A stretch of DNA of 64,000 bases from Watersipora subatra (taxonomy: Eukaryota; Bryozoa; Gymnolaemata; Cheilostomatida; Watersiporidae). Shown here in pieces: positions 7,138 through 62,153 of this stretch (the stretch's first letter is position 1; each line of letters begins with the position of its first letter). The position numbers were made by a program, and so were the translations under genes. The stretch is taken from the NCBI RefSeq assembly GCF_963576615.1, contig NC_088711.1, positions 38,684,621 to 38,748,620 on the forward strand, in the 5' to 3' direction. A model generated the notes under the pieces. That model worked only from the letters and a program-made list of their open reading frames with translations. It was not told the DNA's origin and did no database searches.

Positions 7138-7875
7138 CTAATCTGCAACAGAAAAAATGTAGATATAGTTACAACTGTGTTAAAACACCTTGAGCTTTTC
7201 TAAATCTTAGTCGCAACAAAATTAAAATCGAAATAGTAAAACAATGACTGATTTGATTTTATATGCAAGGCTGGTTTGATGAGGCAGGTTTGCCAAATTT
7301 TTTTTACCATCAACAGATTTTATTTGTTTCCTGGTGGATACACATGGAAAACTAATGTTTGTACTTCATATATATCTAGCTACTGTTGTAATTGGTATGC
7401 ACTCTAGTAACTGCTAATTATGTAAATCTATAAATAATCAACTCATAACTGTATAACAGAGTTTAATCCTTACTCTTATGCAATATGCCCTATAACTATA
7501 CTTACATCCTCCAAAGCCTCTGCCAAATCCACCTCCGAATCCACCACCGAATCCCCTACCAAAACCTCCTCCAAATCCTCTACCAAACCCGCCTCCATAA
7601 CCTCTTCCAAATCCGCCACCAAAGCCTCGTCCGAATCTACCGCCAAAGCCTCCTCCAAATCCTCCTATTCCTCTACCAAAGCCACCTCTAAAACATATTT
7701 CCAAAAATATTATCTTACTCATATAAATATCATTCAGATCTAAGCCACAAATTAAAAGTTTAACGGCTTAAAAATAAAAGGGGCACAATACGCCAACTTA
7801 CCCAAAACCACCATAACTGGCTACAGTCTGGTGGAGAGTAAGGCAGAGAGCCACAAGGATTACCAAGAACTTCAT
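7138..7875 (-). CDS. Secreted glycine-rich protein, copy A
   Basis: Spliced gene, 86 aa. Coding exons on minus: 7,875-7,802 (start ATG to phase 2), 7,687-7,506 and 7,142-7,138. Exon 2 gives a signal peptide MKFLVILVALCLTLHQTVAS, then YGGFG; exon 3 codes 60 residues of Gly with Phe and Arg (blocks of GFGRGFGG), with one Gly to Arg and one Phe to Tyr change against the other copies (exon residues 17 and 30). Exon 3 ends GGA GGA T before GTAAGT; exon 4 starts AT TAG, completing Tyr and stopping. Introns: 423 bp (5' UTR), 114 and 363 bp. An AATAAA lies only 11 bases after the stop (7,127-7,122). The predicted mature chain has no Cys and its only charges are Arg. It is the most divergent copy (extra YG after the signal, different UTRs). 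Function unknown; structural, adhesive or antimicrobial roles are all possible. No expression evidence. Confidence 0.85.
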
Positions 7876-7914
7876 ATTGGCAGATTTCTGATTAGCTAGT
7901 TTGACAAGGTTATT
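7802..7914 (-). other. Gene A exon 2 (5' UTR end plus signal peptide)
   Basis: The acceptor (CATTGCAG, exon from 7,914) precedes a 39-base leader and ATG at 7,875-7,873. The donor at 7,801 reads GTAAGT. The start is chosen because the same ATG opens the same signal peptide in all six copies. Confidence 0.8.
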
Positions 7915-8337
7915 CTGCAATGAGATACCATTAAGTTATAAAATACTGTTTAACATGTATCAATAAATGCATAATTTAAAACAATTACTTTACTTTCAAT
8001 AAATGTTTCTGTGATAAAATTCTACCTATAACTTTACCAAAAGTGTTTTGAATTTTTTCTTACAGGTTTTTTGACGGTCCATGTTTGAGACAGGCAAAAT
8101 AAAAAGTGCTAACAAAGGCAGTAGACTGCTTGAGATCTGCAGTATTAGCTGTAAGTTTTTTTAGCAAAGACAATAAAATTGACATTTTGAGCTACCTTCT
8201 CTGCAAAAGTCTAAATACAAGGCCAGTCCTGAACAGAACTAATGATGACAATATACTTATGGTTTAACTGTAACCCTTTTTATCTGTAAGCACATGAGTC
8301 TACTGATTACCAGTTTAGTATTAAATTATATACTTAC

Positions 8338-8420
8338 TACATATAATTTGGCTGATGAAGGTGAACTAAAGTCTGAAACTGCTGACCAGCTATTTATATA
8401 AATTAACTCTCATTAATCAT
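8338..8420 (-). promoter_or_regulatory. Gene A core promoter and non-coding exon 1
   Basis: On minus, GATTAATGAGAGTTAATTTA leads into TATATAAATAG (about 8,404-8,391), a clear TATA box. About 25-30 bases on, a short leader runs to a GTAAGT donor at 8,337, so exon 1 is about 8,370-8,338. The same GATTAATGAGAGTTTATTT-TATAAATAG order occurs before copies B, E and F (mutated in C), which marks it as the shared promoter although copy A has otherwise diverged. Confidence 0.75.
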
Positions 8421-9425
8421 AAGCAAAAAAGAAATCGTGATCAAAGTCTTTCAAGGTCTTTTAAGGAAACCAATAAAAGAAGATGAAAAATGATTGTATC
8501 TTGTACGCTCTAATCAGAGAATCCAATTGGGAAATCATCAATCTAAAATAAACTTGACAACATTTCTAACTGGGCGTACAAAAATATGCAAAAATGATTT
8601 ATTAAGTTTTGGTAATTTTTGCAGTGATATGGCTACACTAAAATAGGTCAAGCATTGAAAAAGAACAACAAAGCAAAGCAGATCAAAGAATGTGATTCTA
8701 ACTTAAGTGCTGCACCACTCAAGCGGGTGTTGACTGTAACCTTGAATGGTCATATATTTAATCTAGCATTAGATCAGTGTCAGAAGCTTTAAAACTTCCT
8801 TTACTGTATGAGCACTGTAAATTGCATTATTGTACATGTATTTATAATATATGGAAACTTCGTCAAAACTTCCTCCATAGCATTAGTTCATTTCTGTAAC
8901 GAGGTGAATGGGATTTTTGAAGCGACATAGAAAAAAACTCCTTCCTATTTCTCTTATCAATAACTAAGTCTTATGAAATTTAAAAAACTACTAACAAGCA
9001 ATTGAAAATAAATCTGAAAAGTCAAATGAAACCATTACAAAACAGTTTATACTTTTTGCAAACAAATGGGGTGTGTGGGACCATGAATGCGCGGAAAGTT
9101 TCACAAATTATCAAGTAATTATTTACCTTTCCACACGTATGACAAACATAGTTTTCTTTTTGGTGACACCAACATACATACTACATTCACCAACATGTGT
9201 TTTAGTTTAGGAGCTTTTTGTTACTACAACCTAAAATTCGCTATCCTGACTCCTTCTCAGTACTATTAAACTACCAAGTTTTAAAACACGCTTTTCAACT
9301 CACTCAATAATTCATAATTTCTGTATTTTAATTTTTTTCCTTCCTATCCAAATGTAACTAAAACAGGATTTTTGATGATTACATGTACCTAAAAAAAGTT
9401 ACACAATTAAGAGGAAACTCACAAT
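8421..9425. other. Upstream region of gene A
   Basis: The first 180 bases keep a weak match to the upstream block of the other copies (a GGAAATCATCAATCTAAA word near 8,531 and CTTGACAACATTT near 8,552). Beyond about 8,600 I see no gene and no repeat. Confidence 0.45.
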
Positions 9426-9429
9426 AGAA

Positions 9430-11995
9430 GCCCTAACCTGCAATGCATTCAGTACATTTTCATCCAATCATATTATGTTGGAGATATTAACATAAATACT
9501 CTTGAAGAGAGTCATACCTCTACTGAATATTTTAATGTTCTTTCTAACTATGCGTTTGTAAACGTGATAAATATTCCTACAATAATAAAAACGTGTCTGG
9601 ACCATATAAGCATTAATTTTCATAATCACATTATTGTGTCAGGCACTCTGTACACACCATTAAGTAATCATCTACCAACTTTCATTAGCATTGATAGCCC
9701 TTCACGGTTTTTGAATATTTTTCACAGCGCAAGCTTTTCCTTCCGGGATTACCAAAACTTTAATCAGAACTCGTTTTTGAGAGATTTGGCAGACCTTGAC
9801 TGGAACCATTTGTTAAACAACCAATTCACACTAGATGAAAAATATGATACCTTCTTACAAAATTTGTTAGATGTTTGTAATACTCATGCACCCACTAAAT
9901 CTTTTAACTCGCAGTTACAGGCGAAACACCAGTAGAGAAAAGCTTGGATTATAACAGAGTTTTTAGACTTGATAAAGAGAAAAGATTATCTATATCACAG
10001 AACATCAAATTCTCTGTTAAACATGAGATTAATAAATAAATACAGAACAATTAGGAACAAACTAACAACAGCTCTACGGCTTTCTAAATCAAAATATTTT
10101 GAAAAGAAGCTAAAGGCTGCCTCTAATGCTAAACAGTTATGGAATATTGATAATCAGGAATTAGGAAAAAGCACTGTAACATCACCGGTGCCTAAATTAT
10201 TTATTGACAATCGAAACCAGGTTTTAAAAGATGAAAAAGGTTTTGCTGACCATTTCAACAGTTATTTTGTAAATATTGGACCCAACTTGTTGGAACAGCT
10301 AAAGCGTTTTGTAATACTTTTCAAGAAGAAAAAATGCTATTGCGAAGTAATCTGTCAAAACCAGAGTTTCAATTTAAAAAAGTTGATAGCACCGAGGTGA
10401 AAGCATATTTGCAAGATTTAAATATAAAAAAAAACACTTGCTTGTTCCTCTATTTGCAATCCCATGACAAAATTAATTAATGAATCTTTAGAAATTGGCC
10501 AAATCCCGAAATCTCTTAAAATAGCTAAAGTAAAACCTTTATTTAAAAAAGGCTCAGTGAAGCCTTGTTCAAATTATCGGCTTAATTCGATACTGCCCGT
10601 CATAAGCAAAATACTGGAAAAGATCATGAACACACAAATAATGCAATATTTATAAATTAATAATTATTTGATTCATGAAAACTAGTTTAGATTTTGGAAA
10701 AATAAAAACACTACACTAGCTCTTACTCAATTCACAAATCAAATTATAAAAGCGTTTAATGATGGGAAAGCCGTACTTGGAGTCTATCTTGATTTTAGTA
10801 AAGCCTTTGATACCCTTGATCACCAAACTCTTTTATATAAACTGAAACAGCTAAAGTTTAGTTCAAATTCTATCAAATGGGTGGAAAACTTTCTTTCTCA
10901 ACGAAAGCAAGTCACCATTATTGGACAATCTGTTTCTGATGAACTAAGCATTACATGTGGTGTTTCCCAGAGATCCATATTTGGCCCTACACTTTTTTAA
11001 GTTTATATTATCGATTTACCAAACATTTTAACAGTTGTTACTCCCATCTTGTTTGCCGATGATACAAACTAGTTTTTACAATCCAAAGAATTACATAGAT
11101 GAGCAAATTTCTGCAGTAAATAATGAACTGAATGAAATCCAAAAATGATGTACTATGAATAAACTAACATTAAATGTAGACAAAACAAACTTTATGATAT
11201 TAAAAAACCATAAAAAATACAGATTCCCTAGGACCGCTTTAACTTTGCATGGTAAAATTTTAAACCAATTCGAAAGTGTAAAATTTTTTGGTGTTCATAT
11301 TGATACAAATTTATCATGGAAGGATCACATAGACAAACTTTTTAATAGTGTTAGACCTTTGTTAGGACTCATATATAAATGCTCAAGTTATTTACCCGAC
11401 AAAGTTTTGGTTCTAATTTACAATGCCATTAATCATTTTAGATTCAGTTACTGTATTGAGGCTTGGAGTAACGCCCCAGGTAAATACTTGAACAAACTCC
11501 AACTTCTGCAAAAACGAGTTCTCAGGATTTTACATAAAAAACCTAAATTAGAACACACCGGCCCACTTTTTCAACAATCTTCAATTTTGACTGTGAATAA
11601 ACTCTATAAATTTCGAACTCTCATCGCGTCTCATCAATTATTCTTCAGCCTTAAGTCACATCGCATTCATCAATATCCCACTCGCTGCTCTTTCTGAAAT
11701 CTAAAGCTACCTCTCTCTCAATCTGCTTCAGGTCATCGCAGAATGTCTTATCAGCAGTCAGCACAATGAAATACTCTGCCTGATGAACTGCGTAGGGTTG
11801 TCAGTGGGCCCACTTTTAGGCGTGCCCTCAAGCTGTACCTGTTGAGCGATGACTAGATAGTTTCTGGCTGCTCGCTGTTAACTTGTGGCCCAGCGCCTTG
11901 ACTAGCAATGCTACTGCGCAGTTTGAGCCTCATCATTATTTTATTTTGTTGTTTTTCTGTTTTCAAATATTTTGATGAAATAAAACCAAACAAAA
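9430..11995 (+). mobile_element. Broken non-LTR retrotransposon (LINE, CR1/Jockey-like), 5' truncated
   Basis: Translated pieces in order: end of the AP endonuclease (YYVGDINI near 9,475-9,500, then TCLDHI near 9,590), a linker with FADHFNSYFVNIG (about 10,230-10,280), reverse transcriptase with FKKGSVKPCSNYRLNSILPVISKILEK (split here only by my reading, 10,540-10,625), YLDFSKAFDTLDH (about 10,785-10,825), a GVSQRSIFGP box (usual GVPQGSILGP) near 10,965, FADDT near 11,053, and the C-terminal thumb region from 11,155 to 11,697 with the usual KFFGVHIDTNLSWKDHI. The frame is interrupted by several stops (for example TAG after residue QAKHQ near 9,933, TAA at about 10,652) and by frameshifts near 10,300 and 11,100. 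The 3' end is probably the AATAAAACCAAACAAAACA tail near 11,990. The start of the protein is missing, so it is a dead 5'-truncated copy. Confidence 0.85.
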
Positions 11996-14284
11996 CATAA
12001 CATGCGTTGCATCTGCAAAATGTTAATGCTACGCCACTGTGTCCTAATCCTGTTTGTACTTTTTCAACAACCCATTGAAATGTTTGTGTACTTAAGAATT
12101 AGCACCTCAAATCTGACACTAGTAAAATATATTACTTAACAGCAAGTATGACTTTAATAAAATACAAAAAAGATTTTAGATCTGTTTAGTAAAAGGTCCG
12201 AAACTTTCAAGTCATGTTGTTTACAATTGTGAATATTTGAGGAAAAGATGGCAGAAAGTTGGCTATTACTGCGGTTTGTGGTCTGTGCTAGGTCTAGCTA
12301 GATTAAAATACTATTAAAGGTTTCATAGGGTATAAGACAGATCATGCGTGTCATTTGATAAGTCATGCCAGCCTCCAAGTGATTAGAACATTCCAGAAGT
12401 TGTGATTGACACATTCATAAGTTCTTAATACTCAGCGAATCATTTTAATCTTTACAAATTATAGCTAATCGTGACAAATTGTTTCAGCTGTCCAAAAACC
12501 ATATCAATTTGTTGTATGCCAGCTGAATTACTATTTGGCATTTTATACTCATCAAGCGCGCCGTAAAATTTGAGCTATCATAGTTGGCTGATTTATGAAC
12601 TAGTTGTATTCATCGTCTGTTGAAGATGGATAAGAACTCCGCCCTTTTAAGACATGGCAGAATTTTGAAAGTTTTTAAATATTTTAGATACGATGAATGA
12701 ATTGGTAGTGCAAACAATAAATTCAGTAGCGGTTTTTAAGTTAAACACACAAAATAACTAGTTTTGCAAAAAATCAAAACATTGGAAATTTCTAAAAAGC
12801 TTGACTATAATAGTAGCAACTGTCTGGGCAAGCTATGTGAAACAGCTTTTACATTGAAAATTTGTAAAACTACATGTATCTAAGTTTGCCAGATTCGAGA
12901 ATTAAGAAACCACGCTCTATATCAACACTTTAAAACCAATTAATTCTGGACTTGATCAACTTTTTTTAAACTGCAAGTCTACAAAGGTTACTGTCAAAAC
13001 AATTAGCAACTAAAAACGGATGCCTCAATAAAGAAAATTATAAAGGTTTCACAGTACCATAGGACATGATGGTGTTTTTAGCAAAAGTTCTGCAATCATT
13101 AGCAACTGGACAATAATTTAAACATAATTATTTCACGGCTTGAAAACATCGGTGCCATTATAAAATCAACTTAATGTGTATTTGACATTCATGATACATG
13201 TGCAATACTAGCTCATCTTACCGAGCAGACAAATCCCCTTAGATAATGGCATGTTTTGTAGCCAATGCACATGTATGATTTGGCTATTTCACTACTCAAC
13301 TCAAATAAGAATGGTGATAATTTTCAACTAATAAAAATAGATAATGTATTTTAGCTTGTTTGACCAATGTTATGAAATAGCGATAGTGTCTCATTTGTGC
13401 CACAAAGCTTATACATTTGTTGCCAATTAATCATTCTAACTTATTGAACACTAGAGGTTAGGCCTTGTTTTTATTTTTCATGTTTTACAAACTATGAAAT
13501 CAATATTAGATTTACAATCAAAATCTTTAAAACTGCTAGCGCTATTGTTATTCGCAAAAACAACCATTTTGAACTATGTCTGGTAATTGTCAGGCATTCA
13601 CAAGGAAGGTTTTAGTCTATACAACCTCAGTCATGTCTGGCTAAAATAGTGGTATATACAGATTAATTTACAAATTTTTAGTAGATTGTCCCAGAAATTA
13701 TCAACATTTTTCTATTATTTGCGATTGTTTTTAAATTTTGAGGTGGTCTGACTTTCAGGATGTTTCACGATTAAGATTGACAAAATTTGATCATCACTAA
13801 AAATGCTCAGATTTCTGTGAAACTGCAATTATGACATCTATATTTGCAATTTGGCAAAAAGACCAGCATAAAACAGACTCGTAATGCTGCAACTTGAATG
13901 AAATAACCGATAACGAGAGACCAACAGCTGATGTCATTTTTTGTTGTCATTTTGGTGCGTATTTTTCTTCTGAACATTTTAACTGCAATCGTGTTTCATT
14001 TATTTTAATTTTGAAACATTCTGTCAGTCAGATAATCTCAAAACATAAAAAACAATTGCAAATGATTTGAAAAATACTGATACTTTTTGATAAAATCTTT
14101 TAAAAGTTTTGGTGTAAGCTTATCTTTTATATATTAATTATTCTAGAGCCAACATAACTAATACTGACAGTACTTATAGGATTACAATCAAATGCAGCAA
14201 CAATGACTTACAGCATAATCTCAGGTGTCATTTTCATCAAACACAAGTCTGATGCAATGAGTAATTAATAAAGAACGAAATATG
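11996..14284. other. AT-rich DNA without a recognised gene
   Basis: No coding region on either strand. Around 12,350-12,490 a stretch with GATTAGAACATTCCAGAAG and AATCATTTTAATC resembles sequence at 21,600-21,740, 33,560-33,660 and 44,290-44,380 in the array units, suggesting that copy A once sat in the same kind of unit. Confidence 0.4.
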
Positions 14285-15685: not shown

Positions 15686-15689
15686 TAAA

Positions 15690-18790: not shown

Positions 18791-18794
18791 ACAA

Positions 18795-19034: not shown

Positions 19035-19797
19035 CTAATCTGTAAAAATATGATTATAATTGTAGTTGATATCATGTATCATGGGATCAGAAGCAATGCT
19101 CAACTAAAGTTTTAAAAATTATAAAAATAAAGCTATGGGAATATCACCAATAGATGCTTAAAAGATGATTAAATGCTTAAGATTAATGAATTAAACACTT
19201 TTTGACATTAAACAATTTAAGTTTTTAGATTTTTTATAGATGTGAGTAATTTATGAATAACTGGTACTTCCATGCAGTGATATACATTTAAATATTGTTT
19301 TAAATAGCATGTAATTTTGTCATTACAGTTTTTATTAACATTTAAGTAAGCAACTTTTTTGATCATAACAAATTTCATTTCTATTTTATTAAAATACATG
19401 TATGTATTTTGTCTATACTTACATCCTCCAAAGCCTCTGCCGAATCCACCTCCAAATCCACCTCCAAACCCTCTTCCAAATCCACCTCCAAACCCTCTAC
19501 CAAATCCACCTCCAAAGCCTCGTCCAAATCCACCACCAAAACCTCGTCCAAATCCACCTCCGAAGCCTCCTCCAAATCCACCGATTCCTCTACCAAATCC
19601 ACCTCTGAAATAAATTGTAAACCAACCTGATGAAGAAAACATTTATAAGATAATATGATAATCTTTCATTGGCAAATAGTTTATTATTAACCAGTTCTAA
19701 TCTTATGGTATAAGCAGTAAGAAACATACCCAAAGCCAGATGCGATAGTTTGGTGGAGAGCAAGACAGAGAGCCACAAGGATTACCAAAAACTTCAT
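19035..19797 (-). CDS. Secreted glycine-rich protein, copy B
   Basis: Spliced gene, 84 aa. Coding exons on minus: 19,797-19,730, 19,604-19,423 and 19,039-19,035. The signal peptide is MKFLVILVALCLALHQTIAS, followed by GFG and a 60-residue Gly/Phe/Arg block with Arg at exon residues 5, 20, 28, 36, 44 and 56, then GGY and stop. Splice sites: GTATG donor after exon 2, TTTCAG acceptor, GTAAGT donor after GGA GGA T, and TTTTTACAG before ATTAG. Introns are 488 (5' UTR), 125 and 383 bp. Exon 4 carries the TAG and a 3' UTR conserved with copies C to F. The frame is intact and the promoter has a perfect TATA, so this copy looks active. Role is inferred only from the secretion signal and composition. 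Confidence 0.87.
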
Positions 19798-20313: not shown

Positions 20314-20395
20314 GGATACTTTTGCTGTTGAAGATGAACTGAACACTGCGACTGATGAGCCTCTATATATACAAATAAACTCTCATTAATCATAC
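20314..20395 (-). promoter_or_regulatory. Gene B core promoter and non-coding exon 1
   Basis: Minus strand: GATTAATGAGAGTTTATTTG, then TATATATAGAGG (TATA at 20,371-20,364). A leader with CTCATCAGTCGCAGTG follows and ends at a GTAAGT donor (exon 1 about 20,340-20,314). Exon 2 starts at 19,825 after CACATTTTAG. Confidence 0.78.
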
Positions 20396-25010: not shown

Positions 25011-26408
25011 AATTGTTTCCTCACCCCGGATACCCCGTATGGGTGGTAAATTCTGCTCTAACTCGGGTCTCCTACCAGAGACCTGGGTGTTTGAGCACTC
25101 GCCTCAAGATCTTAGCTGTTCCCAATAGCGCACTTTTCTGCAACTCACCTGAGTTGATTGTTGTTGGTATTTGGGCACGCCACATTTTATGCGCCGGTGT
25201 TATTGCGCCCAGTGCCCCAATGACTACTGGGATTACAGTTGTTCTTACATTCCAGCATTTTTCAATTTCTTCTGCAAGAGGGAGCTATTTCTCTACCTTT
25301 TCTTTTTCTTTGCTGGCTATATTGTAGTCATTGGGTACTGCTATATCTATTATAGTAGCCCTCTTGTTCTCCTTGTCTACCACCACTATATCTGGTTAGT
25401 TTGTTAGGACATGCTTGTCAGTTTGGATGTAGAAGTCCCAGAGGATCTTAGCGTGGTCATTTTCATTGACCTTACCAGGAGTTTCCCACCAGTGTTGCGG
25501 TTTATTAAGGCCATACTCACCACATAGACTTCTATACACAACACCTGCGGCATGATTATGTCGCTCAGTGTATGCGTTCCTTGCTAGCTGCTTGCATCCA
25601 CTGATGATGTGTTGGATGGTCTCAGGTGCATCTTTGCACAGTCTGCATCTAGGATCGTCTCTAGTCTGATAGATTTTCATTTGGAGTTGCCTTGTTGGGA
25701 GCACTTGCTCCTGGGCTGCCATGATTAGCGACTCTGTATTGGCCATTAGGTTTCCTTTGTTCAGCCACATAAATGTCTGGTGAAGGTTGCCAACCTTAGA
25801 TATTTGTTGGTGGTAAGCCCCATGAAGAGGTTTCGTGTGCCAGGCAATTTCCTCATCATCAAGGCGTAGGTCTGTTGTAAGAGCAGCTGATTGAAATTCA
25901 GCTAGCAACTTATCTGAGATGGCCATGGAGGCTGCATATGCTTTGATGCTTTGCTCCTCCTCTTTCACTGTCTGCTGTACACTTTTGAGTCCCCTACCGC
26001 CATCTTTCCTATCAAGATACATTCTAGTAGTATCAGATTTTGGGTGGAGTGCTCCATGCATGGTCAGCAGTTTATGAGTTGCTATATCTGTTTCTTTGAT
26101 GGCTTCCTCAGTCCACTTTATTATGCCTGTTGGATATCTTATTACTGGCAGTGCGTAGGTATTTATTGCCATGACTTGGTTCTTGGCATTGAGCTGGCTC
26201 CGTAAGACCTGCTGAAGGCGTTTCTTGTATTCGGTAATGGCTTTGTGACGTACCTCGGCTTCGTGGTTGATGTTCCTTTGCATAATCCCCAAGTCTTTGT
26301 ACCCTTCTTCTATATCTTTGATGGTACCATTTAGCATTCTTAGGCCATCTGTGAGCATAGAATGGCCTTTCTTAAGAATTAGCCTTCCACATTTCTCAAT
26401 ACCGAAGG

Positions 26409-26410
<2 letters not shown>
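25011..26410 (-). mobile_element. 5'-truncated R2-type LINE (restriction-like endonuclease class)
   Basis: The minus strand codes the C-terminal part of a non-LTR retrotransposon protein from about 26,409 down. Recognisable pieces: FGIEKCGRLILKKG, GYKDLGIMQ, a MAINTYALPVIRYPTGII stretch, MHGALHPKSD, GGRGLKSVQQTV, then a CCHC knuckle C-X2-C-X7-H-X4-C (CRLCKDAPETIQHIISGC), and after it the endonuclease with PDIVVVDKENKRATIIDIAV. That RT-thumb, knuckle, PD...D order is the R2-like layout. A TAA at 25,396-25,398 sits just before PDIVVVD and a TAG follows EKVEK near 25,295, so the copy is dead. The 3' UTR ends GAGGAAACAATT against the TA tract. Both sides are TA microsatellite. Exact clade cannot be fixed without the reverse transcriptase core, which is missing. 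Confidence 0.85.
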
Positions 26411-26479
<69 letters not shown>

Positions 26480-26482
26480 ACA
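26411..26482. repeat. (TA)n microsatellite, 5' side of the LINE fragment
   Basis: About 30 TA repeats followed by a GTATATATATAACATG exit. Together with the tract at 24,870-25,010 it brackets the R2-type LINE. Confidence 0.9.
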
Positions 26483-28555
26483 TGTTGCAAAAATATAACT
26501 GTTTCGGTGCAAAAGGTTATTTATAACAAAATGATACTCTTTTTACCATAGTCAATTGGACAACTGGTATTTTTTGCAAACCTTTAGTTGCCACTCTGAC
26601 AAAAGTTTGCAGAGCTGTTGTATGGTGTCACTCCGACCTTGCAGTTTTCTACCTCACACCTAACCCTTACACAACCAATACTAAAATATAGTGAAGAGGG
26701 TTGTCACTGTTTTGCAAGACTACCATGTGGGCACTTCAAAATGATAATAAATAATTGAGGCACTTTTAGAATACATGAAATGTGTTGTTACTGTAATGGT
26801 AGTAATGGCCCAGACATTACAGGGTCATCTAATGTTTATCTATAAAAATATAGTCAATGGGCAAGTGATCAATATATTCTCAATGATATTTTAAAACTCA
26901 TGACATGGTTTGTAAGGTTTACTCAATTTTTGACAGTACAATTTTAGGCTCGTATCATATATAGGCCATTTCTCAAGGGCACACAGACTTGTTATCATTT
27001 CTTTGTTAGCTTTCTTAGGCTAATCAAATGCTTCTGTGCTATTAGGAGAAAACAGCTCTGGCTTGCAGACTAATTGCTAGTCACTTCTTCAGTGTTAATT
27101 TTATTCTTAGCACAAATGAGAAAATGCTTAGCTGATAACTGCAGTGTAGATTTGGCAAAATATTTGTGTTCCAGTTTTTATAGTTTGGAACATGAGTGCA
27201 CTACTCCTTTAGGAACTAAGATTTATTTATCTGCCTGTTTAACTGTGGGAATAATAACTACACTTATGGTGGCAGCATGAGATATGGCACCTTACCTAAC
27301 TCTGAACACCTCCAGATACATTGAATAAGGCTTTTTTTAAGCTAACATGCTGGCGTAACCCAAACTATACATGTGGATGGATAATTTGGAATTTTTTAAC
27401 TAACTGAATAAGTATGTTTTTCATTGTCAGTAGATATGATGATGTTTAAAGACATGTGCATTATAAAAAATCAAGAAACTCCATGATACAGTACATTGAA
27501 AAATGGACTATTTACCCAGTGAGTGAGTACTTAATATAAAAGTGTATTGAACAAGGACAATTGGAGAGTAAACATCCTGTTCAAACTGCTCCTATGTTAT
27601 CTGAACTTTACTCCTATTGAGGGAACTATGGGGAAAAAGATAGGTTTGCAAAATAGATTGTAAATATTTTAGTAGGAGTTCTTTACTCTGAGCTCTTCCA
27701 GAGTTATCAATCTTCTGTTTTCAATAATGCGATGCTTTCTCTTTGTTCATAGTTCTAATAATATTCTCTCTAAAGATAAACCATGATGATCTATGTACTG
27801 GCTAATTGCCTTCTTTAGAAACAGGGACGAGTGTGAGTTAGCTATGATGAAAAACTGGAGAGGTAGTAAAACTTAGGATAAAATTAAATAAATCTTGAAG
27901 TTTAATGTAACACTGAAAAAAGCATGAAATAATTTGTAAGTGGTTTTGAGCAAGGTACGTTTAGAATACATGAAATTTGTTGTTACTGTAATGGTACTTG
28001 GCTCACCATTTTCTCCAAAAGGGTGAAAAATACTTTTGAGCAGTTATGAGGGATGATGATGTTGACCAAATGTGATAAAGTATATCAAAGTGGTACATTG
28101 GTTGTTAACAGCAATTAATTTATAACTTATTCTATATTTTACCAACCACAGCATGCTAGAGTTGAAAATATTTTATGATGGATGTATAATTCTCAGATGA
28201 GTGAAGAACCAAAGAAAATAGTTTTGAAAGAATAAATACTTTTAGAGTAGTAATAGTAACAACTAACTTTATTAATACATATGTGGTAGACACAAAAACA
28301 CTAATAAAGAAGTGTAAAAGATACAGTCAAAAATGGCAGAAGTATAGTCATCATCTACTCTCTCTGTAAACAAAAAAACAACATTTACACATAGATGAGC
28401 TCTTACATTCTTGTATGGGGTATGGATTGGTCACAGATTACCTAATGTGTTCTTCTCATAGAGTAACTAACAAGCTATGATAAACTTTACATAACTAAAA
28501 CTTCACTGTCAACAATTCCAGCGTCAGTAACATGTGATAACTTGGTGTGTTTTAC
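26483..28555. other. Array unit block (unit B), with a dispersed-repeat copy
   Basis: No gene. Matches 38,290-40,025, 50,050-51,890 and 57,360-59,330. A dispersed-repeat relative spans about 26,690-27,010 (GTTTTGCAAGACTACCATGT to ACACAGACTTGTTATC). A 68-codon frame at 27,074-27,280 has no conserved counterpart in the sister units and is rejected as a gene. Confidence 0.5.
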
Positions 28556-31087: not shown

Positions 31088-31737
31088 CTAATCTGTAAAA
31101 GTATGAGTATAATTATTGTAACCATTTTGTATCGTAGAATTAGAAACAATATCTCTTGATACTGAACAATATAAGTTGGTAGACTTTTGATAAATAGAAT
31201 TAATGTATAAATAACACATACATTCATAGAACAGTGTATTTAATCATTGCTTTGAATATCATCTTATCTTAAAAATCTTATCATTAACCTTTGCATTAAT
31301 ATTTACGCAGGAAGCTGTTAGAGTGTAACAACATTTCTCTTTTATTTTAATAACAAGTTTGTTTATCTATACTTACATCCTCCAAACCCTCTTCCAAATC
31401 CACCTCCAAATCCACCTCCAAATCCTTTTCCAAAGCCACCTCCAAAACCTCGTCCAAATCCACCCCCAAAACCTCTACCAAATCCACCACCAAAACTTCG
31501 GCCAAATCCACCACCAAAACCTCCTCCAAATCCTCCAATTCCTCTACCAAATCCACCTCTGAAACAAATTATAAAAAATCTGATGATAGAAATGGTATTG
31601 TTTCAGCCAAACAAAAGTTTATTTTTAACTCTTTCAACTCATATGATGAAAAGCAGCAATAAAACATACCCAAATCCAGATGCGACAGTTTGGTGGAAAG
31701 CAAGACAGAGAGCCACAAGGATTACCAAGAACTTCAT
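31088..31737 (-). CDS. Secreted glycine-rich protein, copy C
   Basis: Spliced gene, 84 aa. Coding exons on minus: 31,737-31,670, 31,558-31,377 and 31,092-31,088. The signal peptide is MKFLVILVALCLAFHQTVAS (AFHQ shared only with copy D), then GFG and the 60-residue Gly/Phe/Arg block, with Gly to Ser at exon residue 21 and Lys instead of Arg at residue 44. It ends GGY-stop by the same T|AT split codon. Introns are 499 (5' UTR), 111 and 284 bp. The frame is intact. The TATA box is altered (see promoter), so its output may be lower than that of B, E or F; that is inference. Confidence 0.85.
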
Positions 31738-32265: not shown

Positions 32266-32348
32266 AGATACTTCTGCTGTTGAAGATGAACTGAATTCTG
32301 AAACTGATGAGCCTCTATTTACACAAATAAACTCTCATCAATCATACT
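32266..32348 (-). promoter_or_regulatory. Gene C promoter with altered TATA, and exon 1
   Basis: Minus strand keeps GATTGATGAGAGTTTATTTG but continues TGTAAATAGAGG instead of TATAAATAGAGG (about 32,328-32,314). Exon 1 ends at 32,266 before GTAAGT. Exon 2 begins at 31,766. Confidence 0.65.
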
Positions 32349-34615: not shown

Positions 34616-35560
34616 CCTCCTTTTCTTATCTCTCTCTTTCTCTCTTTCTCTTGTTTTCTTTTTCTCTCTTTCTCTCGTTCTCTCTTTTTCTCATTTTCTC
34701 GTTCTCTCGTTCTCTCTCTATTTCTTGATCTGTTCCTCTCCCTCTCCTTTTTCTCTCTCTCTCCTTTTTCTTTCCCTCTCCTTTTTCTTTCCCTTTTTTT
34801 CTTTCTTTAGGTATCATCTCTTTTCATCTCTCTATCTCTCTATTTTTTATTTTTTATCTTTCTATCTTTCTATCTCTCTATTTCTCTATCTCTTTATCTT
34901 TTTATCTCTCTATTTCTCTATCTCTTTATCTCTCTATCTCTCTATCTCTCTATCTCTCTATCTCTCTATCTCTCTATCTCTCTATCTCTCTATCTCTCTA
35001 TCTCTCTATCTCTCTATCTCTCTATCTCTCTATCTCTCTATCTGTCTATCTCTCTATCTCTCTATCTCTCTATCTCTCTATCTCTCTATCTCTCTATCTC
35101 TCTATCTCTCTATCTCTCTATTTCTCTATCTCTCTATTTTTCTATCTTTCTATCTTTCTATATCTGTATGTCTGTATTTCTCTATCTTTCTGTTTCTCTA
35201 TCTCTCTATTTCTCTATCTCTCTATCTCTCTATCTCTCTATCTCTCTATCTCTCTATCTCTCTATCTCTCTATCTCTCTATCTCTCTATCTCTCTATCTC
35301 TCTATCTCTCTATCTCTCTATCTCTCTATCCGTCTATCTCTCTATCTCTCTATCTCTCTATCTCTCTATCTCTCTATCTCTCTATCTCTCTATTTCTCTA
35401 TCTCTCTATTTTTCTATCTCTCTATCTCTCTATTTCTCTATCTCTATATTTTTATTGCTTCATCACTCTGTCCTTCAACTTTTCTCCTCCTTCATATTTT
35501 TATCTTTTCATTTCTTCTCATTTCTTTTTACATCTACATTTATTTTTTCTTCTGTCAATT
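34616..35560 (+). repeat. Octamer tract 2 of unit C (TATCTCTC type)
   Basis: About 560 bases of almost pure TCTCTCTA octamers (34,870-35,450) inside a looser T/C-rich region. The Ser/Leu/Tyr/Ile frames are artefacts. Confidence 0.9.
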
Positions 35561-42140: not shown

Positions 42141-42819
42141 CTAATCTGTAAAAGTATGGGTATAATTAATGTAATCATTTTGTATCATAGAATTAGAAAC
42201 AATATATATTGACACTAAACAATATAAACTGATAGACTTTTGATAAATTTAATTAATTTATGATATGGGTGTTGTACCAATTTTGTACTAATTGTACCAA
42301 CGTTCATAGAACGATATATTTAATCACTGCTTCAAATAGCATCTTCTCTTAGAAGTCTTATCATTACTCTTTGCATCAATATTTAAGCAGGAAGCTGTTA
42401 AGAGTGCAACAAATTTTTTTATTTATTTTAGTAACAAGTTTTTATTATCTATACTTACATCCTCCAAACCCTCTTCCAAATCCACCGTCAAATCCACCTC
42501 CGAATCCTTTTCCAAAGCCACCTCCGAAACCTTGTCCAAATCCACCTCCAAAACCTCTACCAAATCCACCACCAAAACCTCAGCCAAATCAACCACCAAA
42601 ACCTCCTCCAAATCCTCCCATTCCTCTACCAAATCCATCTCTGAAGTAAATTATAGAAAACCTGATAATAGAAATAATATTGTTTCTGGGAAATAAAAGT
42701 TTATTTTTAACTCTTTCAACTTGCATGATGAAAAGCAGCAATTAAACATACCCAAAGCCAGATGCGACAGTTTGGTGGAAAGCAAGACAGAGAGCCACAA
42801 GGATTACCAAGAACTTCAT
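42141..42819 (-). pseudogene. Glycine-rich protein copy D, inactivated
   Basis: Exons align with the family: 42,819-42,752 (intact signal MKFLVILVALCLAFHQTVAS plus GFG), 42,640-42,459 and 42,145-42,141. Exon 3 is still 182 nt and all splice sites are kept, but two codons became TGA: exon residue 17 (Gly GGA, 42,591-42,589) and residue 20 (Arg CGA, 42,582-42,580). It also shows Gly to Asp at exon residues 1 and 51 and Arg to Gln at 36. Upstream, the TATA box and exon 1 are missing (junction near 43,185-43,245). Truncated product would be about 39 aa if transcribed at all. The start of exon 2 is at 42,847. Closest to copy C. Confidence 0.88.
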
Positions 42820-45362: not shown

Positions 45363-46350
45363 TTTAACTTTCCCCATTTTTTTATTTCTTCTTATTCTCC
45401 CTTTCTCGTTTTCCCTCTTTCTCTCTTTTTCTCTCTTTCTATCCTTTGCTCTTTTTCTTTTTCTTTCTCTCTTTCTTTCTCTCGTTTTCTCTTTTTCTCG
45501 TTCTCTTGTTCTTTTTTCCTCTCTCTATTTTTTATCTGTTTCCCTCTATCTTTTTTTCTTCCTCCAGGTCCCGTATCTTGTCATCTTTCTATCTGTCTAT
45601 CTTTTTATCTCTCTATCTCTCTATCTCTCTGCCTCTCTATCTCTCTATCTCTCTATCTCTCTATCTCTCTATCTCTCTATCTCTCTATCTCTCTATCTCT
45701 CTATTTCTCTATCTCTCTATCTCTCTATCTCTCTATCTCTCTATCTCTCTATCTCTCTATCTCTCTGCCTCTCTATCTCTCTATCTCTCTATCTCTCTAT
45801 CTCTCTATCTCTCCATCTCTCCATCTCTCTATCTCTCCATCTCTCTATCTCTCTATCTCTCCATCTCTCCATCTCTCCATCTCTCCATCTCTCCATCTCT
45901 CCATCTCTCCATCTCTCTATCTCTCTATCTCTCTATCTCTCCATCTCTCCATCTCTCCATCTCTCCATCTCTCCATCTCTCCATCTCTCCATCTCTCCAT
46001 CTCTCCATCTCTCTATCTCTCTATCTCTCTATCTCTCTATCTCTCTATCTTTCCATCTCTCTATCTCTCCATCTCTCTATCTCTCCATCTCTCCATCTCT
46101 CCATCTCTCTATCTCTCTATCTCTCTATCTCTCTATCTCTCTATCTCACTATCTCTCTTCTCTCTATCTCTTCATCTCTCTATTCCTCTATCTCTCTATC
46201 CCTCTATCTTTATATGTCTTTATCTTTCTCTCTCTATTGTTTTTATTACTTCATCATTCTGTCTCTTAACTTTTTCCTCCGTCATATTTTTATCTTTTCA
46301 TCTTTTCTCAAATCTTTCTACATATATTTCTCCTTCTGTGAATTTCATGC
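45363..46350 (+). repeat. Octamer tract 2 of unit D (TCTCTCTA and TCTCTCCA)
   Basis: Core about 45,600-46,165 with an exact 8-base step. Runs of TCTCTCTA alternate with blocks of TCTCTCCA, a variant not seen in unit C, so this tract was homogenised after the units separated. Confidence 0.9.
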
Positions 46351-53309: not shown

Positions 53310-53960
53310 CTAATCTGTAACAGTATGAGTATACTCATAATTACTATTTTGTATTGCGGAATCAGAAATCTTATCAATTAATATTAACTAATTCAGGTTT
53401 ACATATTTTTTTACAAGTTTTATTAAGTTATCAAGAAAATTGCACACTTTCATACCATGATATATATTTAATAACCGTTTTATACAACATGTAATCTGAT
53501 CATTACACTTTGCATCAATCTTTACGTAAGCCGTATTTAGCAGTATAACAAAACTTTATTCATATTTTAAGAGGAAATAAATATCATTTATACTTACATC
53601 CTCCAAACCCTCTGCCAAATCCACCTCCAAATCCACCTCCAAATCCTTTTCCAAAGCCACCACCGAAACCTCGTCCAAATCCACCTTTAAATCCTCGTCC
53701 AAATCCACCACCAAAGCCTCTTCCAAATCCACCCCCAAAACCTCCTCCAAATCCACCAATTCCTCTACCAAACCCGCCTCTGAAATAGATTATAAATAAA
53801 TCTTAAAAGAAACAATGGTATTATTTTATTGTTACAAAATTTTAATATTAACTCATTCTTTTTATGTGATGAGAAACAGTAGAAGGACATACCCGAAGCC
53901 AGATGCGACGGTTTGGTGGAGAGCAAGACAGAGAGCCACAAGGATTACCAAGAACTTCAT
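53310..53960 (-). CDS. Secreted glycine-rich protein, copy E
   Basis: Spliced gene, 84 aa. Coding exons on minus: 53,960-53,893, 53,779-53,598 and 53,314-53,310. Signal MKFLVILVALCLALHQTVAS, then GFG, then the 60-residue block with Gly to Lys at exon residue 31 (shared with F) and Lys at residue 44 (shared with C and D). It ends GGY-stop through the split Tyr codon. Introns 494 (5' UTR), 113 and 283 bp; exon 2 begins at 53,988. The frame and splice sites are intact and the TATA box is perfect. Likely active; function as for the family, unknown. Confidence 0.87.
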
Positions 53961-54482: not shown

Positions 54483-54565
54483 AGATCCTTCTGCTGTTGA
54501 AGATGAACTGAATTCTGGGACTGATGAGCCTCTATTTATACCAATAAACCCTCATTAATTATACA
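54483..54565 (-). promoter_or_regulatory. Gene E core promoter and non-coding exon 1
   Basis: Minus strand: TAATTAATGAGGGTTTATTG then GTATAAATAGAGG (TATAAATA at 54,540-54,533). Exon 1 about 54,507-54,483 ends before GTAAGT. Confidence 0.78.
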
Positions 54566-55580: not shown

Positions 55581-56895
55581 AGTATTCCTAAACAAGTTTT
55601 TTGTACTGCCAGCTTAAAAAGTTTACTGAAAACGATATTATTTAACATATGAACTCCTTCAGTGTCGCGTGCCAATTACAGCAAAATGCAGCAGTTGTGA
55701 TTTACAGCAATATTTATTAGTGGTTTTGTCTATGTCCAGTCATGACACAAATTACTATTTAATGGAAAATACAGTTCAACAAGGCTTCCATGTAGGTTAT
55801 TGAATAGAACAGACAGTAGTTATGATATCTCTATATATTTATATATGTACTTGTAGACCTGCAATTGTTATTTTAGACACTTTCGTGATTGTTTCCATGA
55901 TTCAAACATGCCAAAATAATCTAATATGTAAATATATTTGCTAAAATGGTACTATTTAATATATATACGCCTTCAGTGTCACCTGGCAATTATAGCAAAA
56001 TGCGGCAGTAGTGATTTATAGTGATATTTGTTAGCACTCTCCTGTATATCCAGTCATGACACAAATGGCTATTTAATAGAAATTACTGTTCCGCAAGACT
56101 TTCGTATAGTTGCTTGATTGGAGCAGAAAGAAGTTAACAGGTTTTAAGATATTTCTATATATCTATATTTGTAGCCCTCTAATTACTGTTTAAAACGCTT
56201 TCGTAATGGTCTCCATGATTCAGCCATTCCAAAGTCCTCTAATACTCATCTATAAAAGGACCAATTTATCACTTTAATCCCTATTGCATGCCAAAACTAA
56301 TGACATGACTTTTGCGTTGTTCCTGATTTTAGACTATGTTGTAGTGGATGCCATCTAAATGCTATATGTTTCCCAAGGATACCCAAACATTAAGTATCTC
56401 TTTCAAAGCTTTCTTCGGTTCATCAGGTGCCACGTATCTGCAAAGAGAGGATAATTCAGACTCGTTAAACTGACTCTAATGTAAGTCATCAAGGTGGGAT
56501 GACCTTCTGTGCTTGTTTACTAATGTACACTTATCATGGTATTGTCCTTTTAAGTGTATTTTGGGTTTTGAGCCTATTTTGAATACCTCTGCAAATAGTA
56601 TTTGAAGTTTTCGCAAAACACTGTGACAATTCAGCAGATGTGACCATCTATGAAGAGTATTAGAAGAATATTTGATATACGCTGTTGAGTAGTTAATTTG
56701 CAGCTGCCAATCAAGCTATCTAATCAGTATTATTTGAGTTCACCTTCGTTATGTAAAATTTTTTGAAGTAGTTGTCCGAGATAGAAATAGTATTCAATAT
56801 AGTTACTCTTCAGCTCAGTGTTACATGCACTTAAAACCTACCAGCTGAGAATTTGCAGCATGGGACAAGATGTTAGCAGTTTGTAAGAATGTTGA
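55581..56895. other. Unit E block right of a 4.3 kb deletion
   Basis: At about 55,583 the sequence jumps from the counterpart of unit D 44,075 to that of about 48,440, so both octamer tracts are missing. The TCGCGTGCC-type module is doubled (words at 55,662 and 55,976, the second mutated to GTGTCACCTGGCA). No gene. Confidence 0.7.
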
Positions 56896-56899
56896 GAAA

Positions 56900-57345
<446 letters not shown>

Positions 57346-59340
57346 ATACATTTCTAAACAGCTAAAATTGACAAAATAACTATTTTCGTCCCAAAGGTTA
57401 ATTATAGCTAAATGATCCTTTTTTGACGGTAGTCAAATACAGCACTGATGATTTTTTGTGAATTTATAGTTGTCACTTTGATTTTGCAGTTTTTTTCATC
57501 AAAATTAGCCTTGACCTAACTAATAATACAACAAACAAGGTTGTCAGTGTTATGCAAGACTTATACATAAGTGCTTTAAGAGGATAATATATAATTGAAG
57601 TCCTGTCAGGTTATATGAAATGTTTTATTACTGTAATGGTATTGTACTAATGACTTAGACATTGCAGGGTCATCTAATATTTATCTATAGAATATATCAA
57701 TGACCAGACCAGTTGATCATTTCATCCCCCATGATATGCTGAAACTTGACTTGATTTGTAAGGTGTATGCATTGATGGGCAAACCAATTGTAGATTTTTA
57801 CCCTATGTAAGCCATTTCTCAAGAGCAGGCTGACTTGTTATTATTCCTTTCCTTTATCAGCTCTCCTCAACTGATTGAATGCTCTATAGTGTTGTTAGGG
57901 GGAAACAACTCCGACTTGGGGCTAAATGCTAGTCGTATTGTCAATATTAACATTTTGCTTATTGTAGACCAAAAAAAGCGTACCAGCTAACTTCAGTAGA
58001 AAACTGATATAGAGTTGTGCTCCTTATTTTTTTTGCAGCTTGGGTGAGCAACTCCCTAAGTAGCGAAAACTTCTTTAGCAGCCTGTTTAACTCCAAGGCT
58101 AATAACTACATTTATGCCTACAACCTGGGTAATGTTGCTTCAGTTGAATCTGCCAAACCTGACATATGATGAAAGAGTTCTCTTTCCGATTCTAACATGC
58201 TTGTACAGCCCAACGGTGTACAAGGTATGGAGAATTTGAACTTTTTTGACTAGTTGATTTGTATTGTTTGTTGGATGTTTGTTTTAAATAATGTAATAAT
58301 GGATTTGTTGATATGACGATGTCATAATGAAGCATTCTTTCAAAAATCTAACAAATTTCTTAATATAGTAGTTTAGAAAATAAAGTATTGACCAAGTGAG
58401 TGGGTATTGAGCTTGAAAATTTATTAAACAAGCACTAGTGGGGAGTAAAACTAAGCTCAACCTGCTCTTATGCTATATGCACTGCACTCCTATTATAATA
58501 AATTTAGTGGAAAAAGATAACTAGCAAAATAAATTGTAAATTACGTTGTAGGAGTTGTGCACTCTGAGCTGCTTTAGACCTACATGTATAATCTTTCTGC
58601 TTTCAATAATGTGGTACATTTTCTTTGTTCATAGATTTAATCATACTTTCTTCCTAGATAAATTATGATAATTTATGTACTGGCTACTCTGCATCTTTAT
58701 AAACATGATATGAGTTTTAGTTAGCTATGGTAACAGTAATAAATCAAATTTTTTAAAAATATACAATAAAACTTATGGGTTAAGTTAATACTTTGAAAAA
58801 AGCATGGAATAATTTGTAAATGATTTTGAGCAAAAAGGCTTGGCTAATAATTTTTTCCTTAAAAATGGAAAGTTCTTCCAAGCAATCAAGAGTGAAATGA
58901 CATAATACCAAACCTAATGAAGTATTTTAAAGAGATACGATGGTCGTTAATACCAATTCGTGACTGTTTCATACTTCACCAAAAAACATGACAAGCTAAA
59001 ATTAAAAATTTAAAGATAAATTTCTATTTCTCTGAAAAAATGAAGAACCAAAGAAAATAGTTTGGAACAAATAATTATATGGAGATTGCTAATAATAATA
59101 ACTAACTTTACTAAAACGTGTAGCAGACACAATAAAACTAATAAAGAAACTGTTAAAAATACATATCATAAACGTGGCAGAAAATGTCATCACCTATTAT
59201 CTCTACACAAAAAAACAACAATAACTCGTAGCAGAGTTTAAACATCCTAGTTTGGGAGATGGATTAGTCGCGAAATGTTTTTCTTTTAGGGTAATTAAAA
59301 AGCTATGATAAACTACGGTTTTAAAATTTTACTCATGCCA
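57346..59340. other. Array unit block (unit E)
   Basis: No gene. Dispersed-repeat relative at about 57,550-57,850. Matches 50,050-51,890. Confidence 0.5.
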
Positions 59341-59582
59341 GTGGTAGTGATGTTCGTGCATGTGTGTGTGTGCGTGCATGCGTGCGTGCGTGTGCATATG
59401 TGCATATTTTCACATGGGTGTATGTGCACATGGGTGTGTGTGTGTGTCTGTGTAAGCACATGTGCATGTGTGAGCGGGAGCACTCACACAAACACGCACA
59501 CACACATGCGCTCACGTGCCCATGCGCGCACACGCATGTAAGCCAGAGTTTGCATGCGCATGTGTGTGCATTTGCATTCTAA
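59341..59582. repeat. TG/CA-rich microsatellite (unit E)
   Basis: GTGTGTGTGCGTGCATGCGT-type text on plus turning into CACACAAACACGCACACACA, so the two halves are roughly inverse. Open frames here are by-products. Confidence 0.85.
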
Positions 59583-60840
59583 GAAGTTACTGGTGTTGAG
59601 CTCAGATGTATAAATGAACCAACAAACCCGTAGCTTGTGAGTTAAAATATAAGCAAAGTTTTAGAGTTAGTAATAGTGGTCATAGAAACAAGCACATAAT
59701 GAGTGAATATATTTTGACATGTTCACATTCCCGTTTTAAGCACCGGTATTAAACACAGCAGGATTCCATGTGAAAAAACATTTACTTTCCCAGATATGGC
59801 GTTATTCTGCCTGTTCTAGGTTAAACAGCTGTAGTCGTCAACTAATTAGCCCCAGAACAGGAAATACAAGTTTTTTTAAAAAGTAATAGAAAGAAAGCAC
59901 TCAATATATGTACTAAGTGCTACATGAATCTAATATATAAAATAATTGTATGGAATACAATGAGCAGTTAGTTTTTAGTCATTTGCCACAAGTGTTTTTT
60001 AAAGCAGATATAGATTTGCTCTCATCGAGTAATAACTTCAGGAAGGCTACCTCAGCTGGCCACCACTGGGGGTGAGATACATATAACTCATCGATCAAAC
60101 TTTATTGGTCAATGTGAAATCACCATCAATCAATGAGAACTACTTGGGGTGTTTCTTCATTTGTTTTATTTAATGTACACTGGTCTGGATTGCAGATATT
60201 CATGAACTTATCACAAAAAGGGAAATATTGCTTGTTTTGCTTGTGTGTTGGAAAAGCTGTAAATTGCTTAACTTTTTTATTGAGCTATGTAGGCTACCCT
60301 TTGGTCTTTTAGTCTCCAAATGCAAATGCTAAGCTCGGTCTTCCTGTTTTTACTTGTGTGGTTCAATAATGCTTTGTTGTTGTTCCTTCCCTTAAAGCCA
60401 ATTTCACAGTGTGTTCAATGTTTCCCTTTTTGTTGTTGTTCTGATCACTAAGTCACTATTGCTTGATATATTATCCTGTTTGTCTTTCAATCACCGTCTA
60501 GTAAGTATTCGTTTTTGAATACCTTAATTGTGGCTGTATCATTTTTTGGCTTTATTGAATATGTTTCTGTTGTGTACTTTAATTATTGCTGTCATGCATG
60601 GCATTCAAAAATAGCTAAGTCCTAAAGTGTGTGTGTTCAATCTTATGCAGAGCTTGTGCTTCTTGGTAAATCATTGTTTAACGTGGTTGCTAAAATGTGC
60701 ATATGTTTTGGACAGAACAGATATGTTGGGTTATTTGATATACCGGTAAATTATATTTACAAAAATATTAAGAAAATGAAACAAAATATTAAACTTAACA
60801 AACTTTAAAAAGGTAAATATGATCATTTCAGTTTAATCAA
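59583..60840. other. Array unit block 3' of gene F
   Basis: No gene. The stretch AAAAATAGCTAAGTCCTAAAG near 60,606 (given as a word within the shared block 60,540-60,740) is nearly identical to 52,890-53,090. Confidence 0.5.
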
Positions 60841-60983
60841 TCACAAAAATACATGCATCATCCGCATGTTTTTGTAAAAGTCTTGACATAAGTTTATCAG
60901 AATCCTTCACTAAAGGTTCGCTCTGTGAGAAGATGGAGACTTGTAAAGAATGAGAATTTGAAGAATTTCATTTGTCTGTGTGT

Positions 60984-61630
60984 CTAATCTGTAAAAGTGT
61001 GAGTATAATCATAATTAATACATGTATTTTGCATTTTGGAATCAGACATTTTATCTATTAAAATTAACTAATTCAAGTTTACATATTTTTAGAGGTGTTA
61101 TTGAGTTATGAAGAACATTGCACATTTTCATACAACGATATATAATTATTCACGGTTTTATACAACATAGAGTCTGAGCATTACACTTTGCATTAACTTT
61201 TATGTAAGCAGCATTTAGAAGTATAACAAAGTTTTATCTATATTTTAAGAGGAATTAAGTATTGTTTATACTTACATCCTCCAAACCCTCTTCCAAATCC
61301 ACCTCCAAATCCACCTCCAAATCCTCTTCCGAAGCCACCACCGAAACCCCGTCCAAATCCACCTTTAAATCCTCGTCCAAATCCACCGCCAAAGCCTCTT
61401 CCAAATCCACCACCAAAACCACCTCCAAATCCACCAATTCCTCTACCAAACCCGCCTCTGAAATAGATTATAAATAAATCTTATAAAAAAAGAGTATTAT
61501 TTTATTGTTACGAAAGCTTGAATCTTTTGTCTTATGTAATGAGAAACAGTAAAAGAACATACCCAAAGCCAGATGCGACGGTTTGGTGGAGAGCAAGACA
61601 GAGAGCCACAAGGATTACCAAAAACTTCAT
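60984..61630 (-). CDS. Secreted glycine-rich protein, copy F
   Basis: Spliced gene, 84 aa. Coding exons on minus: 61,630-61,563, 61,457-61,276 and 60,988-60,984. Signal MKFLVILVALCLALHQTVAS, then GFG and the 60-residue Gly/Phe/Arg block, with Lys at exon residue 31 as in E and Arg at 44. Ends GGY-stop. Introns 494 (5' UTR), 105 and 287 bp; exon 2 begins at 61,659. Intact frame, strong donors and perfect TATA. Nearly a twin of E. Confidence 0.87.
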
Positions 61631-62153
61631 ATTGATTGTTGGTAGTGTTGTGTTTGTATCTAAAATGTGAATAAGTGTTAAACACATACCAGGATGAGTT
61701 AAATGTTTTGGCTTAATTGTGAGCTACACAACTTACAGAACTACACATTTTTATATTAAATGTTATAGGATTGGCCTACTGGATAGTGGCAGTCCAAAAG
61801 TATATGAAACTGATTAAATATTGTTTAGTGAGTGAATGTTATAAAAACAAACAGTCTAATATTTAGAAAATGTCACACTTATCAATTTTTACTATAAAAC
61901 TAAGCTGAATGATCAGTTTAAAACTTAATTGCTATTTTTAGTTTAAATCAGATGATAGCAAAAACCTTGGCTGCCTAAAATCAACACTTTTTTAGTTATA
62001 AAATGCAGAACAGTAAAACTGATAGACCATGTTAATATAAGCTTTTCTCTAATGTTTAAGGATATTAATAAATTTTTGCCATTGAAAATCTTTTACTGTT
62101 GAGGACCTCAGTCTAATGAATAGAAGTAGTATATTAAATTATATAGTACTTAC

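Follow-up and report, generated by a model that had tools for sequence, protein, structure and literature searches.

Introduction

Clusters of duplicated genes for glycine-rich secreted proteins are described from nematodes and bivalves. One study (PMC2453101) reports a nematode nlp-29 cluster of six genes whose duplicates have diversified, and NLP-29 itself is described as reaching the cuticle by secretion. Bivalve shematrins are characterised as basic, glycine-rich and repetitive (PMC9210306), with five pearl oyster genes arranged in tandem (PMC4759782). In cheilostome bryozoans, which calcify, the cuticle is described as a product of the epithelium in which staining found mucopolysaccharides, proteins and chitin (PMC11358562). 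Here we analysed 64,000 nucleotides from the cheilostome Watersipora subatra (hereafter the window, C4:38684621-38748620 of the 784 Mb assembly; NC_088711.1, forward strand), where six copies of a gene for a small glycine-rich peptide with a signal peptide had been noticed. We found that these copies belong to a family of at least 31 loci, with an unusually constant gene frame surrounding a changing core. We see about an even chance that the family encodes tandemly amplified, probably lineage-specific, small secreted cationic glycine-rich peptides of the bryozoan cuticle (ectocyst), possibly with an additional antimicrobial role.

Family size and common gene frame

A DNA search of the assembly with exon 2 identified 26 loci, all on chromosome C4 between 38.51 and 40.48 Mb. 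Searching with the promoter and exon 1 gave 24 matches, all at 38.50-38.81 Mb; 18 of them lay at 17 known loci, and the six elsewhere corresponded to five further genes and one exon 1 relic. This brought the total with both exon 2 and exon 3 to 31 loci on the single chromosome. Locus counts for large families are lower bounds; 31 loci and five sequence types are minimum figures. The relic (L065, C4:38810865-38810956) consists of a promoter and exon 1, with no exon 2 or 3 in the next 2.5 kb, and at L014 (C4:38795586-38795815) promoter and exon 1 are doubled in tandem before one gene.

The types were distinguished by their repeats. Type A (GFGRGFGG) comprises 10 loci (L009-L016 and L019, with L026 alike) and type B (GYGGYGRG) 12 (L023, L027, L028, L030-L034, L063, L064, L066, L068). 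Type D (RFGYNRF..FRRGFGG) was found at six loci (L018, L020, L021, L022, L024 and L029, the last broken). Type C (GIGGGLGGG; L017, 212 residues) and type F (GGGSRGYGGGF; L067) are represented by one locus each, and L025 falls outside all types.

A signal-peptide exon of one kind is common to the sequence types, with the signal peptide of L067 agreeing at only 10 of 23 places. Upstream of it, a TATA-like box followed by TCAGTCTCAGAATTCAGTTCATCTTCAACAGCAGAAGTATCT and, across the splice site, GTAAG was recognised by eye, with differences allowed, at 19 of the 26 loci from the exon 2 search, which include members of types A, B and C as well as L025 and L026. This exon 1 and promoter were not seen within 1.5 kb in L012 or the six type D loci. 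The usual gene consists of a TATA promoter with a non-coding exon 1, a signal-peptide exon, a variable repeat exon and a final exon holding the end of a tyrosine codon and the stop. Acceptors were set by hand for L012, L013, L020, L022, L027, L030 and L034. A family tree was built on 104 columns, and as 11 of its 23 inner branches stayed open it was not used for the order of events.

A protein search returned 29 matches, of which three fell outside the cluster: two on C10 and a weak one, with 24% identity, at C4:32.13 Mb. The C10 matches (L070, C10:42291800-42294300) were rejected as members: the DNA there repeats a 12-base unit, which translates as FGRSFGRS or DGHLDGHL and so matched the peptide query, and no signal exon accompanies it. 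Representatives of three types had no match in Pfam or NCBIfam, in agreement with the first-pass annotation, made from the letters of the window, which did not recognise the family. A PDB search with two representatives gave chance-level matches only (E 0.93 and 0.71). A literature look-up of the peptide strings turned up only GYGGYGRG, in a single paper, and a limited look at the literature revealed no account of bryozoan proteins of this sort.

Anatomy of the six copies

All six copies in the window lie on the minus strand. Their exons are as follows.

8341-8382, minus strand: copy 1, exon 1 motif, non-coding; TATA box at 8398-8390 just upstream
7802-7875, minus strand: copy 1, exon 2 coding part, signal peptide, phase 2 end
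7506-7687, minus strand: copy 1, exon 3, glycine-rich repeat, phase 1 end
7138-7142, minus strand: copy 1, exon 4, first five bases, AT and TAG
20314-20355, minus strand: copy 2, exon 1 motif, non-coding
19730-19797, minus strand: copy 2, exon 2 coding part
19423-19604, minus strand: copy 2, exon 3
19035-19039, minus strand: copy 2, exon 4, AT and TAG
32266-32307, minus strand: copy 3, exon 1 motif, non-coding
31670-31737, minus strand: copy 3, exon 2 coding part
31377-31558, minus strand: copy 3, exon 3
31088-31092, minus strand: copy 3, exon 4, AT and TAG
42752-42819, minus strand: copy 4 (pseudogene), exon 2; upstream promoter and exon 1 deleted
42459-42640, minus strand: copy 4 (pseudogene), exon 3, interrupted twice by TGA in frame and encoding two aspartates
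42141-42145, minus strand: copy 4 (pseudogene), exon 4, AT and TAG, retained
54483-54524, minus strand: copy 5, exon 1 motif, non-coding
53893-53960, minus strand: copy 5, exon 2 coding part
53598-53779, minus strand: copy 5, exon 3
53310-53314, minus strand: copy 5, exon 4, AT and TAG
62154-62195, minus strand: copy 6, exon 1 motif, non-coding; TATA box at 62211-62203
61563-61630, minus strand: copy 6, exon 2 coding part
61276-61457, minus strand: copy 6, exon 3
60984-60988, minus strand: copy 6, exon 4, AT and TAG

The first-pass annotation had described a last coding exon that adds exactly one tyrosine, and direct reading of the copies bore this out. In all six, exon 3 ends GGA GGA T before GTAAGT, exon 4 starts with ATTAG directly after CAG, and the phases are 2 at the end of exon 2 and 1 at the end of exon 3. 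The junction GGAGGATGTAAGT has six exact matches in the window, all on the minus strand, where 0.02 were expected from shuffles; allowing one mismatch added no site in the window. Joining exons 2, 3 and 4 gives models that read MKFLVILVALCLALHQTVASGFGGGFGRGIGG...GFGRGFGGY and close relatives, with precursors of 84 residues (copies 2, 3, 5 and 6) or 86 residues (copy 1), as had been stated. The signal peptide was judged by eye and supports the view of a secreted glycine-rich family. From comparison of the copies, exons 1 to 4 are predicted to be spliced together. An AG lies five bases past the exon 4 acceptor in copy 6 (60988-60984) and copy 1 (7142-7138) and is a possible second acceptor; its use would also give a tyrosine (TAC) and would open a further reading frame.

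Other parts of the original description had to be amended. A constant non-coding exon 1 had been claimed for every copy; copies 1, 2, 3, 5 and 6 carry the motif (with 12 differences in copy 1), and it is deleted in copy 4. The exact TATA pattern stands just upstream of it in copies 1, 2 and 6; copy 3 reads TGTGTAAATAG, and the TATA box of copy 5 falls at about 54542-54532. The extent given for the cluster, 7138 to 61737, starts at the last base of the copy 1 stop codon and ends too early, as the copy 6 exon 1 motif (62195-62154) lies beyond it. Six copies are indeed present in the window; one of them is dead, and the family is larger, with further loci beyond the window on both sides, so the cluster is not confined to that extent.

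Copy 4 is a pseudogene: TGA interrupts the frame of its exon 3 twice, and a deletion has removed its promoter and exon 1. Upstream, its alignment with copy 3 breaks off and resumes across a gap that amounts to about 0.36 kb net, and the DNA missing from copy 4 there is the site of the copy 3 promoter and exon 1. The mature part of copy 4 has two aspartates in 64 residues.

Selection and composition

Codon counts were made on the seven group A copies whose exon 3 sequences are equally long, including L011 outside the window; L014 and L016 were excluded for unequal length. The figures cover group A only, and the 21 pairs among the seven copies are non-independent. For the six intact copies, which are L011 and the five from the window and form 15 pairs, the pooled proportion of synonymous differences (pS) in exon 3 was 0.367 and that of amino-acid-changing differences (pN) 0.026. 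Between copies 6 and 1, for example, this exon shows 31 synonymous changes and 4 that alter an amino acid. Over the 21 pairs, identity was 81-96% in exon 3 and 47-92% in the introns. Exon 3 of group A is thus under strong purifying selection, which upholds the coding exons proposed by the first-pass annotation; as synonymous changes far exceed amino-acid changes, we regard these as real genes. In the six pairs that involve copy 4, pS was 0.308 and pN 0.053, i.e. pN was doubled.

Exon 3 is a tandem repeat of 12-48 bp units, in which the residues beside glycine are mostly Phe, Tyr, Ile/Leu/Val or Arg. In 23 models the mature parts together comprise 1421 positions, with 820 glycines and one acidic residue; this total omits L012 and predates L063, L064, L066, L067 and L068, and L025 and L029 have no model. 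Glycine codons are one step away from those of aspartate or glutamate. Among the later members, L063, L064 and L066 have no acidic residue. Across 24 models the mature glycine content is 31-69% and the isoelectric point 9.5-12, cysteine is absent, and Arg/Lys outnumber Asp/Glu in every case. Model lengths range from 64 to 96 residues, except for L017 with 212, and the C-terminal ends read GGY, GYY, RYY, GFY, GLY, FRG or FGK.

The terminal tyrosine

At 23 of the 31 loci the last base of exon 3 is T and exon 4 begins with AT or AC followed by a stop, where exon 4 of L017 was borrowed from L001 and the L068 junction was read by eye. The tyrosine codon is TAT in 18 of these and TAC in five; the stop is TAG in 18, TAA in four and TGA in one. 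Eight loci have no such split tyrosine. Two of them are broken (L012 and L029), and L026, L027, L030 and L034 have a stop earlier within exon 3. L025 likewise stops within exon 3, with an exon 4 counterpart that reads ATTTGA, and in L067 (L067/L069, C4:38672100-38676700) the split codon is T/AA, so that the stop itself is split. L027, L030 and L034 (type B, C4:38.58-38.60 Mb) have a common TAA ahead of the last intron. Beyond this TAA, the frame of L030 and L034 stays open as far as SGFY and the former stop, which suggests that the TAA was gained.

The tyrosine has been kept while both of its codons and three stops interchange, as would be expected from selection on the residue. Shared ancestry and splice context also contribute to its retention. 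In type A the terminal tyrosine is the sole tyrosine of the mature part in six of the eight intact copies.

Other features of the window and the genome

Broken retroelement pieces were found at 9411-11697 of the window (plus strand; RVT_1 match at 10686-11000) and at 25396-26520 (minus strand; a weak zf-RVT match below the Pfam cut-off). Long CCCTCTCT / ATCTCTCT arrays with strong strand skew occupy 3817-4961, 34826-35449 and 45395-46235, and a 120-base tandem repeat runs from 63598 to the window end at 64000. Rfam and tRNA scans of the window gave no useful match.

Searches of the assembly for the mollusc hemocyanin domain (PF14830, without a match in any control either), for COX1 (PF00115, matched in 8 of 14 controls) and for an APGWamide repeat peptide gave no match; mitochondrial DNA thus seems to be absent from the assembly or unreadable by this kind of search. 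A homeodomain query of the assembly gave 18 matches, whose classes were presumed by eye from characteristic signatures. Within about 120 kb on one strand (C1:7370857-7491263) lie Post2 (L048), Lox5 with a KLTGP tail (L045), Dfd (L047) and pb (L052); a second Dfd (L046) is on C4:9624646-9624831, and the remaining matches include a Cdx-like exon (L057) and genes of further homeobox classes. Antp, Scr, Lox2 and Lox4 were not seen among the 18 matches, a search in which intron-split homeodomains can be missed. These four belong to the ancestral lophotrochozoan Hox set according to PMC10675955, which describes three cheilostomes as having Dfdb apart from a region that contains pb, Dfda, Lox5 and Post2, and reports two Lox5 and a different arrangement in the phylactolaemate Cristatella. 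The reduced, split Hox set found here matches the arrangement published there for cheilostomes, and by itself makes the host very probably a bryozoan; Lox5 and Post2 mark a lophotrochozoan. A mollusc or cephalopod, first suggested by (TCTC)n repeats and GC content, was discarded as a host since none of the four ancestral genes was among the matches, and flatworms, whose Hox sets are also reduced, are less likely in view of the bryozoan-like gene arrangement.

Discussion

We favour the cuticle because sequence and length of type A are near constant and because cheilostomes secrete their cuticle as a layer with protein and chitin. The body-wall epithelium would secrete the peptides into the ectocyst, where flexible glycine-rich chains could associate via aromatic-arginine contacts. 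The terminal tyrosine might serve as a site for oxidative coupling, and gene duplication would supply an amplified dosage of cuticle material. A more specific proposal, offered tentatively and in our view rather doubtful, is a cuticle system of constant ends and exchangeable core: promoter, signal exon and final tyrosine would be kept in most of the roughly thirty genes, and the repeat exon swapped or diversified into Phe-, Tyr-, Ile/Leu- or Arg-rich forms. The type A tyrosine, where it is the sole one, would then be a dedicated end-to-end coupling site through dityrosine or 3,4-dihydroxyphenylalanine (DOPA).

Several observations weigh against a cuticle role, among them members that depart from a uniform design. 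In type D the common exon 1 was not seen within 1.5 kb, the length of type B is variable, and L025, L026, L027, L030, L034 and L067 look complete without the terminal tyrosine. L068 has one glutamate, and L067 combines an acidic, serine-containing tail with a divergent signal peptide. Conservation of the last junction could partly reflect splice context, as the bases after the stop are similar too. Finally, type B (GYGGYGRGYGGYGRGG) resembles, by eye, the C. elegans NLP-31 sequence printed in PMC9658076.

This last likeness, together with the secretion of NLP-29 into the cuticle, makes epidermal antimicrobial peptides the main rival: cationic, glycine-rich peptides in or on the cuticle, like nematode NLP-29 and NLP-31. 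We consider this possible, at low confidence. It is in keeping with the clustered duplicates, the excess of basic over acidic residues in 24 of 24 models and the absence of cysteine. On the other side, the nlp-29 cluster is reported to diversify under natural selection (PMC2453101), whereas group A is under strong purifying selection, and its low pN and near-constant length are more in line with a material protein than with a peptide engaged in an arms race. The three types scanned also lack a Pfam or NCBIfam match, and L017, with 212 residues, is long for such a peptide. Cuticle and antimicrobial roles may coexist. Proteins of the calcified skeleton or of an attachment cement, comparable to the shematrins, are an unlikely explanation. 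Going by published descriptions of the shematrins, the family resembles them in its glycine-rich repeats, basic character and tandem cluster, and the animal belongs to a calcifying group.

Small, secreted, repetitive precursors would also suit neuropeptide-like signalling, and the C. elegans genes are named neuropeptide-like protein. We regard this as very improbable here: 16 of 24 models (copy 4 read up to its first stop) have no dibasic site, and in the remaining eight (L017, L018, L020, L021, L022, L024, L026, L031) RR occurs once or twice with no regular cleavage units. That the loci are not genes at all, and merely chance open frames in a simple repeat, is hardly credible. Exon 3 is itself a short tandem repeat, and the protein query did pick up the unrelated 12-base repeat on C10; chance frames are at odds with the 31 to 4 ratio between copies 6 and 1, and with the recurrence of splice sites, signal peptide, promoter and terminal tyrosine across types.

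If the cuticle assignment is right, about 30 genes, most with one promoter, would provide a direct route to the cuticle-forming cells. The family allows a proteomic test of the make-up of the covering, and it raises the question of why a single terminal tyrosine persists in proteins that otherwise vary along most of their length.

Among known systems, NLP-29, NLP-31 and the caenacins are alike in being repetitive glycine/aromatic/arginine peptides from clustered, duplicated genes, with type B nearly NLP-31. A GYGGYGRG-type repeat follows the signal peptide in type B, and not in types A, C, D or F. NLP-31 as printed in PMC9658076 differs in ending in GWGK instead of tyrosine and in coming from another phylum, the nematodes; the nlp-29 cluster is described as evolving fast (PMC2453101), whereas group A evolves slowly at the protein level. 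The likeness to the nematode peptides is likely to be convergence. Shematrins carry a basic C-terminal tail of the RKKKY type that ends in tyrosine. None of our models has such a tail, or a run of basic residues with a tyrosine at the end. Shematrins are known from molluscs (pearl oyster, zebra mussel), and the members here have 64-96 residues except L017 (24 models). The composition of silk-like structural proteins of the SilkSlider class, described as secreted, glycine-rich and of low complexity (PMC4944945), is found here as well; that class is a compositional grouping and not a family by descent. On present comparisons, we judge that the resemblances to shematrins and to nematode NLP peptides probably reflect separate origins.

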